This document shows, piece by piece, positions 10,444 through 49,565 of a DNA stretch of 64,000 bases (the first letter of the stretch is position 1; each line of letters starts with the position of its first letter). The position numbers and the translations under genes were made by a program. Origin of the DNA: Candidatus Saccharimonadota bacterium (GTDB lineage: Bacteria > Patescibacteriota > Saccharimonadia > Saccharimonadales > Saccharimonadaceae); contig JAFZBS010000010.1 of assembly GCA_017561575.1 (NCBI GenBank), forward strand, positions 62,001-126,000, in the 5' to 3' direction. The notes beneath the pieces were generated by a model. The model was not told where the DNA came from. It worked only from the letters and a program-made list of their open reading frames with translations, and ran no database searches.

Positions 10444-10731
10444 ATGGCAAGCACCAAAGAATATCGAGATTTTATCTTAGAACAATTGTCGGAAGCGCCG
10501 AACATTACTTGTCGGCCAATGATGGGCGAGTTCTTGCTCTATTCTAGTAACGTCCTATTTGGCGGCATTTATGATGACCGTTTACTCGTAAAAATAGTTC
10601 CAGAAAACAAACAATACAAGATGACCGAAGAGATTCCGTACGACGGCGCAAAACCGATGTATTTTGTGGAAGATGTCGACGATAAAGAAAAGTTAGCAGA
10701 GATAGTAGAAGTAACCGTAAAGGGGCTATAA
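10444..10731 (+). CDS. TfoX/Sxy N-terminal domain protein
   Basis: A 95-residue protein with CRPMMGEFLLYSSNVLFGGI at residues ~20-40, the typical core of the TfoX/Sxy N-terminal domain. Full TfoX regulates competence in gamma-proteobacteria; stand-alone domains like this one are common elsewhere and their role is unclear. There is no C-terminal TfoX domain. AAAGGA precedes the ATG. Its stop lies inside the terminator of the converging tRNA-Lys transcript. Confidence 0.8.
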   Translation: MASTKEYRDFILEQLSEAPNITCRPMMGEFLLYSSNVLFGGIYDDRLLVKIVPENKQYKMTEEIPYDGAKPMYFVEDVDDKEKLAEIVEVTVKGL

Positions 10732-10750
10732 AAAACACCGCCTTGCGGTG
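10729..10750 (-). terminator. Terminator of the tRNA-Lys transcript
   Basis: On the minus strand CACCGC-AAG-GCGGTG is followed by TTTTTTA. It lies after both 66-bp repeats, so the repeats should be transcribed together with tRNA-Lys. Confidence 0.75.
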
Positions 10751-10769: not shown

Positions 10770-10901
10770 TGGTGAGCCGGGTGGGACTCGATTGGAACAA
10801 CGATGTCCCGTTTTTTGTGCAATTCCGTTAGGAATTGGTGAGCCGGGTGGGACTCGATTGGAACAACGATGTCCCGTTTTTTGTGCAATTCCGTTAGGAA
10901 T
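10770..10901 (-). repeat. Two identical 66-bp repeats carrying the 3' end of tRNA-Lys
   Basis: Units 10770-10835 and 10836-10901 are identical. Each contains the last 22 bases of tRNA-Lys including CCA, joined to 44 bases of other sequence. In tRNA sense each unit can fold with GGGAC pairing to GTCCC of the T-arm remnant, plus an inner TCG/CGA. The units sit directly after the real tRNA and before its terminator. The same plan occurs beside tRNA-Ser at 49315. Confidence 0.85.
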
Positions 10902-10978
10902 TGGTGAGCCGGGTGGGACTCGAACCCACGACACCAAGCTTAAGAGGCTCGTGCTCTAACCAGCTGAGCTACCGGCCC
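10902..10978 (-). tRNA. tRNA-Lys (anticodon CTT)
   Basis: A 77-base cloverleaf with encoded CCA. Acceptor GGGCCGG pairs with CCGGCTC; anticodon arm CGAGC-CTCTTAA-GCTTG gives CUU; T-arm GTGGG-TTCGAGT-CCCAC. Its promoter is TTGTAA-17-TATAAT at 11020-10992. Followed by two repeats of its own 3' end. Confidence 0.95.
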
Positions 10979-10991
10979 GCTCACTCCGATA

Positions 10992-11020
10992 ATTATACCA
11001 CAAAAATCAAACTTTTACAA
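10992..11020 (-). promoter_or_regulatory. tRNA-Lys promoter
   Basis: TTGTAA (11020-11015), 17-bp spacer and TATAAT (10997-10992) with TG one base before it (extended -10), ending 13 bases before the mature tRNA. Confidence 0.7.
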
Positions 11021-49314: not shown

Positions 49315-49472
49315 TGGCGGAGGGTGGGAGATTCGATTCGAGCGAAGCGAGAACGATATCTCGTTTTTTGTGTGCCCCCCTCCGGGGCATGGCGGAGGGT
49401 GGGAGATTCGCATCAAGCGCTTTTAGCGCGAGATCCGACATCTCGCTTTTTGTTTTTTTGTGCAACAAAAAA
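49315..49472 (-). repeat. Two tRNA-Ser tail repeats
   Basis: The last 21 bases of tRNA-Ser, with CCA, recur at 49315 and 49390, 75 and 83 bp apart from the next copy. In tRNA sense each is preceded by an A-rich stretch and a segment where GAGAT can pair with ATCTC of the T-arm remnant, with inner TCG/CGA. The intervening bases differ between copies. This is the same plan as at tRNA-Lys. It fills the gap 49234-49472; no gene seen there. Confidence 0.82.
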
Positions 49473-49565
49473 TGGCGGAGGGTGGGAGATTCGAACTCCC
49501 GCTCCAGATCACTCCAGACTAACGATTTAGCAAACCGTCCCCTTCAGCCACTTGGGTAACCCTCC
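49473..49565 (-). tRNA. tRNA-Ser (anticodon GCT)
   Basis: A 93-base class II tRNA with encoded CCA; acceptor GGAGGGT/ACCCTCC, anticodon loop TTGCTAA, long variable arm, T-arm GGGAG-TTCGAAT-CTCCC. TGATAGAAT lies just upstream. Its tail is repeated twice downstream. Confidence 0.95.

Follow-up and report, generated by a model that had tools for sequence, protein, structure and literature searches.

Why should a tRNA gene be followed by copies of its own 3' end, each of them joined to a segment that can pair with it? The question is raised by tRNA-Lys(CTT) in a 64,000-nt stretch of saccharibacterial DNA (the window, which here always means the whole stretch and not a single feature). An earlier note on this DNA took the copies to be either scars of repeated tRNA-targeted integration or a structured RNA or tRNA mimic made together with the tRNA, favoured the second, and knew of no described family like it.

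Anatomy of the units behind tRNA-Lys(CTT)

Directly behind tRNA-Lys(CTT) lie two exact 66-bp direct repeats, and the tail of the tRNA is present three times, including in the tRNA itself, at a spacing of 66 bp (Table 1). Read in the sense of the tRNA, each unit is ATTCCTAACGGAATTGCACAAAAAAC-GGGACATCG-TTGTTCCAA-TCGAGTCCCACCCGGCTCACCA, and its final 22 nt reproduce tRNA positions 55-76 exactly, CCA included, as the earlier note had described. In the proximal unit, the spacer (X) comprises, in this order, a small hairpin (ATTCC-TAACGG-AATT), GCACAAAAAAC, the complement, and the loop. The complement, GGGAC-A-TCG, pairs with CGA-GTCCC, which is the T-loop and the 3' strand of the T-stem (positions 56-63); for the proximal GGGACATCG, the partner lies in the tail copy after it and the A is bulged. 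Reading of the sequence bears out this pairing in both units. We rejected the notion that the complement is a copy of the T-stem 5' strand, as it pairs with positions 56-63 and differs from that strand. Compared with dinucleotide shuffles, the array folds with a z of -4.1, and 0 of 200 shuffles fold as well.

The only terminator-like site in the region lies on the minus strand beyond both units, where the earlier note had placed it, and beyond it the units face a convergent gene (10444-10731, plus strand). The units would lie between the promoter and the terminator of the tRNA gene and, given this position, are probably co-transcribed with the tRNA and cut out during its maturation, as has been reported for E. 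coli RtT.

Table 1. Positions in the window of the two tRNA genes, their units, and neighbouring signals
Feature	Position	Strand	Basis
tRNA-Lys (CTT) with encoded CCA	10902..10978	-	ARAGORN and Rfam RF00005, 67.6 bits
Spacer X of tRNA-proximal unit, 44 nt	10858..10901	-	exact repeat and type A covariance-model match
Complement segment GGGACATCG, proximal unit	10867..10875	-	read from the sequence; covariation across 41 distinct units
Tail copy 1, final 22 nt of tRNA-Lys including CCA	10836..10857	-	exact match
Spacer X of distal unit	10792..10835	-	44/44 identical to proximal spacer
Complement segment GGGACATCG, distal unit	10801..10809	-	same basis as proximal complement
Tail copy 2, final 22 nt of tRNA-Lys including CCA	10770..10791	-	exact match
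Intrinsic terminator-like hairpin of the tRNA-Lys transcript, then T-run	10736..10750	-	terminator scan; beyond both units
Sigma-70-like promoter match TTGTAA-17-TATAAT upstream of tRNA-Lys	10992..11020	-	consensus match only
tRNA-Ser (GCT), second tRNA with units	49473..49565	-	tRNA call
tRNA-Ser type A unit 1	49390..49472	-	exact 21-nt tail copy at 49390-49410
tRNA-Ser type A unit 2	49315..49389	-	exact 22-nt tail copy at 49315-49336

Units at other tRNA genes of the genome and genus

Screening all tRNA-bearing stretches of the genome with the own tail of each tRNA (36 tRNAs; 18-nt copies with at most two mismatches, at most 450 nt from the tRNA) revealed copies downstream of nine tRNAs and none upstream or on the opposite strand, so the tail copies are not due to chance. 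At distances above 450 nt, tail copies again occur downstream only (three cases in 0.87 Mb). One of these directly follows another tRNA-Arg, and the remainder are isolated units; integron-like arrays were rejected as an explanation, and we claim no cassette system.

Type A units, which include those of tRNA-Lys, are about 66-83 nt long with a tail of 21-22 nt, and follow the plan (small or T-rich hairpin)-CAAAAAGC-(complement)-A-TCG-loop-CGA-(tail). In the same genome they also follow Val(CAC), Leu(TAG), Ser(TGA), Ala(GGC), Asn(GTT), where the tail is decayed, and, in degenerate form, tRNA-Tyr. The second tRNA for which the earlier note had seen the hairpin is tRNA-Ser(GCT); it carries two divergent units of this plan, with a different spacer in unit 2 than in unit 1. 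Type B units measure about 170 nt plus a tail of 18-19 nt and are found behind Glu(TTC), Arg(TCG), and Val(TAC). They have a terminator hairpin and then complement-GAACC..GGTTCG-helix-TAGGAGnnGAG-hairpin-CGAnnCGACGCC-hairpin-tail. Units of types A and B can be stacked behind the same tRNA.

Covariance models of both types, of the kind that the earlier note had proposed to build from the units, were searched in 100 relatives (60 congeners and 40 genomes of other families). Type A matched in 33 of the 60 congeners, type B in 48, and at least one of them in 51; neither model matched in the 40 genomes of other families. Nearly all type A matches inspected adjoin a tRNA 3' end and end in the tail of that tRNA, and most of the top type B matches also lie directly behind a tRNA with its tail. 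The search of tRNA 3' ends for partial copies, likewise proposed in the earlier note, yielded units in a complete genome of another family as well (G094; L317-L356, with 800 of 909 kb scanned). There, tail-copy units follow eight of 32 tRNAs (seven by the 18-nt, 450-nt test, all downstream, with 0 tail copies upstream or on the opposite strand), are mostly about 170-285 nt long, and share a third, different core (GGTGAGA..GCAAGGA..TTTCGGG.TCGC). Across 85,000 species, a pattern scan for the type B core gave matches almost exclusively in Saccharibacteria, mostly from ruminant-gut assemblies; 77 of the 120 matches in the loci retrieved, among which are a few chance hits in unrelated bacteria, lie at most 400 nt behind a tRNA. 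Viral contigs contained no type B core other than one GC-rich, chance-like match.

In alignments that were fitted to the structure, 93.5% of the cells in the complement-tail helix of 41 distinct type A units are paired and 8 of 11 pairs show double changes, with a covariation of 0.497 compared to 0.215 ± 0.017 in shuffles (0/500); for type B, alignments fitted in the same way give 96.5% of cells paired, double changes in 45 of 46 pairs, and a covariation of 0.723 compared to 0.197 ± 0.009 (0/500). Because of this fitting, an alignment-free test was added: 44% of spacers contain an exact complement, 7 nt or longer, of their own tail, and 6% contain one of the tails of other tRNAs. Conservation of the hairpin and covariation of the complement with the local tRNA show that the pairing is real; it is either maintained or regenerated. 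The earlier note had made its RNA reading depend on this covariation, which is present.

The same body can be found behind different tRNAs. Loop GTTCTCGCTTCGCTCGAA follows Ser(GCT) with the complement AGAT and Tyr with GGAC, and loop TTGTT..CCAA follows Lys(CTT) in the window with GGGAC and, in another genome, Gly(TCC) with GAGAA; in each case, the complement fits the local tRNA. Conversely, a single tRNA (Tyr, Ser) carries several bodies. Among 38 type A copies that were found without use of the tail of the local tRNA, 28 are identical to positions 59-76 of their own tRNA and 34 have at most one mismatch, and positions that vary between species follow the own tRNA in 91.5% of cases, compared to 48% for the same tRNA of other species. 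The spacers of type A units behind the same tRNA are only about 68% identical. Such perfect tails beside diverged spacers could stem from gene conversion with the tRNA or from selection as well as from target-site duplication.

Several other arrangements were observed at tRNA genes of relatives. A conserved sequence that is not a unit, ACAGGGGAACCTGTGGAAAACTCAGGTTC...AAATCACCCTTTTTTGTGCATCAATTTCGAGGTTCGAAACC, lies behind tRNA-Lys in three congeners (L051, L052, and L058), and similar pieces lie behind tRNA-Lys of others (L054 and L060). Genome G017 has two nearly identical tRNA-Gly type A units 1.2 kb apart (L134:247-1553), with a 2-hydroxyacid-dehydrogenase-like gene between them; only the first unit is behind the tRNA. 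Congener G008 (C19 L170:6760-13194) carries a 6.3-kb integrative element with a tyrosine integrase in the anticodon loop of tRNA-Lys(CTT), bounded by a 5' half-tRNA at one end and a full tRNA plus a 58-nt tRNA part at the other.

Probable mobility of the units and competing explanations

Comparison of loci between genomes suggests that the tRNA-tail repeats move. The type B spacer behind Val(TAC) is identical at 169 of 170 positions between the genome of the window and G017, and the flanks on both sides are unrelated (about 53%); the two tRNAs differ in the acceptor stem and the tail copies differ too, each matching its own tRNA. A tRNA-Tyr type B pair, with 98.8% identical spacers, gives the same picture, including tails that match the tRNA of the recipient. 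Near-identical spacers, unlike flanks, and own-matching tails together indicate that X travels and that the tail is the recipient's, gained through target-site duplication or later conversion. Between two species (L215 and L252), a shared stretch of 3.9 kb at 93% identity breaks off precisely at the CCA of the distal tail in a tRNA-Glu unit, beyond which the DNA is unrelated.

For type A, no near-identical spacer was found at unrelated flanks in two species. The evidence for its mobility is indirect and consists of the bodies shared behind different tRNAs and an empty site; the direct evidence of mobility is that of type B. The empty site is the orthologous tRNA-Lys locus of genome G002, which has the same convergent gene (protein 73.7% identical) and no unit, and most orthologous tRNA-Lys genes likewise have none.

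Type B cores also occur away from tRNAs, both intergenic and in frame within conserved protein genes, among them those for QueA, GyrA, RecX, and Der. In QueA, the Pfam match is split into two stretches around the type B insert. The outer arms of the in-frame type B-like repeats (L195, L206, L211, L224, L228, L246, L247, L251, L271, L187, and L194) are inverted repeats of 15-25 bp that are different at each site. At three intergenic loci (L188, L262, and L267), the type B core lies between arms TTAGCACT/GAGTGCTAA that resemble the CIRCE heat-shock operator.

We consider it probable that the units are structured repeats, mobile but not autonomous, which insert directly behind the CCA of tRNA genes and bear a tail copied from the target. 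The inserted part would be X, and the 21-22 nt behind it would be a copy of the 3' end of the target tRNA, with which the short complement in X would pair to form a closed hairpin; type B would be a larger sister repeat that does likewise. The Lys array would go back to one insertion, its second unit presumably having arisen by a tandem duplication of 66 bp, and the Ser array would consist of two different units. The type A units of the window would move as type B does, their tails would arise by target-site duplication rather than later gene conversion, and the mobilising enzyme would be supplied in trans. No mobilising gene is linked to the units, and no transposase candidate emerged: Phage_integrase and Cas1 had no match in the genome of the window (80% complete), and reverse transcriptases showed no association with units among the congeners. 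The units are short, non-coding, dispersed in many copies, and self-folding, as are mobile palindromic repeats (RPE, MITE, BIME), and like these they have an empty orthologous site (that of G002). The difference in tail length between type A (about 21 nt) and type B (18-19 nt) argues against a fixed staggered cut. A doubtful extension, which we put forward tentatively, is that the element is guided by nucleic acid: the complement, pairing as RNA or as single-stranded DNA, would be a 7-14 nt guide to the T-arm of one tRNA that directs insertion after the CCA and duplicates an 18-22 nt tail, with RtT in the same class. A changed guide would then retarget the same body to another tRNA.

A possible, though not likely, alternative to mobile repeats is a functional RNA: the unit would be a small RNA made together with the tRNA, like RtT, whose complement-tail-CCA hairpin is selected for the RNA or for tRNA processing, mobility being secondary. 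Strong covariation of the closing helix, tails that are kept identical while spacers diverge, and placement before the terminator are all consistent with this, as is E. coli RtT, which is annotated and reviewed as a product of the tyrT transcript (PMC4986893). It accords poorly with the lack of a unit at most orthologous tRNA-Lys genes, the decayed tail of the tRNA-Asn unit, and a spacer body that does not track tRNA identity, and a selfish repeat fits better with type B cores in frame inside protein genes. From the structured RNA of the earlier note, the conserved hairpin and its covariation with the local tRNA stand, but not the idea in its original form. Concerted evolution, which we regard as improbable, would dispense with transposition: old tandem duplications of the tail would be homogenised with the tRNA by recombination or template switching, and quasi-palindrome correction would perfect the complement. 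Template switching is known to perfect inverted repeats, the exact 66-bp tandem pair is an outcome expected of slippage, and the tails are far more conserved than the spacers. This leaves unexplained why spacers are 99% identical at unrelated flanks in different species, why the same body follows different tRNAs, and why cores lie far from tRNAs.

It is very unlikely that the units are attachment-site scars of phages or integrative elements whose tyrosine integrases target tRNA 3' ends. An integrase element in tRNA-Lys does exist in the genus (G008) and synteny breaks at the distal tail, but examination of integrase neighbourhoods revealed a different mode, in which the G008 element splits the tRNA at the anticodon and not at position 56-59. 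Moreover, the spacers are conserved structured repeats of 40-245 nt rather than what random deletions would leave behind, the tail next to the tRNA is that of the recipient, whereas exchange at a T-loop attachment site would import the version of the element, and the genome of the window lacks an integrase match. No element or integrase was found between or near the repeats in the loci inspected, and in no close pair does a long element lie between the tRNA and the adjacent tail copy; the presence of full-length elements there is what the earlier note had said would defeat its RNA idea. Its integration scars find support as repeated precise insertions at tRNA 3' ends (the empty G002 site, the unrelated flanks, and the synteny that stops at a distal CCA), but not as remnants of long elements, given spacers of about 40-245 nt. 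Casposons target tRNA gene 3' ends and produce target-site duplications, and a casposon- or CRISPR-like insertion by a Cas1 family integrase would make the tails such duplications. The probability of this is close to negligible: Cas1 is absent from the genome of the window and the seven of 60 congeners that have it include none of the 33 type A carriers (Fisher p 0.002), a distribution that largely excludes it.

An antisense transcription barrier is highly improbable as well. On the opposite strand, the hairpin is followed by GTTTTTT and would act like an intrinsic terminator that guards the tRNA against convergent transcription; in eight aligned type A units of the genome, the A5-6 run ahead of the hairpin does not vary, and the Lys units do face a convergent gene. 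We rejected this explanation, as the terminator scan does not call the hairpin, the gene behind the Ser units is co-directional, and type B is without such a run. Two further candidates were dropped. The 18-nt copy of positions 59-76 recalls the primer-binding site of a tRNA-primed reverse transcriptase, but reverse transcriptases are common in the genus and not associated with units. A modification stop is not the reason for the extent of the copied stretch, since E. coli copies the same stretch and its tRNAs are, to our knowledge, without m1A58. The testable question that emerges is whether pairing with the tRNA brings about insertion (as a guide), is required by the RNA product, or results incidentally from template switching in DNA.

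Relation to RtT and other repeats

Casposons and tRNA-targeting integrases also use tRNA 3' ends, but they are large and protein-coding, and their enzymes are absent or unlinked here. Rickettsia palindromic elements are non-autonomous palindromes that have spread between genes, into RNA genes, and in frame into protein genes (PMC2229807). The saccharibacterial type B cores likewise lie in frame in protein genes. We know of no tRNA tails or target-matching complement in the Rickettsia elements, and it is by these two features of the units, that is, by description and not by sequence, that we set them apart. In excerpts from the literature, YPAL/RU-2 of enterobacteria have target-site duplications of 3-26 bp and targets at or next to dyad symmetry (PMC2229807), and rtT-like sequences are reported among BIMEs (PMC2965389); these excerpts contain no description of tRNA-tail-directed insertion.

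The closest known thing to the units is E. coli tyrT/RtT (RF00391), a described family that shares the tail copy and the closing helix of complement and tail, contrary to what the earlier note had supposed. The tyrT locus has 178-bp units, each ending in an exact 19-nt tail copy (positions 58-76, with CCA), and the spacer segment GGGGAAGGAT is complementary to the tail copy and closes the structure; the RtT consensus in Rfam shows this helix. RtT is reviewed as an RNA processed from the tyrT transcript (PMC4986893), and the E. coli locus is annotated accordingly ('RtT sRNA, processed from tyrT transcript'). The units of the window are similarly downstream of a tRNA, end in its 3' end with CCA, and are closed by a spacer segment complementary to the tail. 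In contrast to the 178-bp units behind one tRNA in enterobacteria, they are 66-190 bp long and occur at many tRNAs. By reading of the sequence, type A is also without the GAGAACC..GGTTCG domain of RtT, whereas type B and the RtT-like units of L313-L314 have it.

RtT had no match in the window or its genome, type A giving none even at E 10, and none of the 60 congeners has a match at or above the 45-bit cut-off. Three of the four sub-threshold matches in congeners, the best three (35.2, 29.2, and 24.6 bits against the cut-off of 45), are tRNA-tail units behind tRNA-Gln and tRNA-Arg, and the type B model matches the E. coli units weakly (11.6 bits at best). Type A is RtT-like in plan and, by Rfam score, not a member of RtT; type B may be distantly related to RtT, and so may the RtT-like units of the genus.

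RtT had looked like a curiosity of one operon. The same architecture recurs at many tRNA genes in one saccharibacterial genus and, built on a different core, in a second family of that order, and its complement follows the adjacent tRNA. These genomes are only about 0.6-0.9 Mb in size, yet in the two that were counted at least a quarter of the tRNA genes have units behind them. RtT and the saccharibacterial units would make up a general class open to comparison, dating, and testing.
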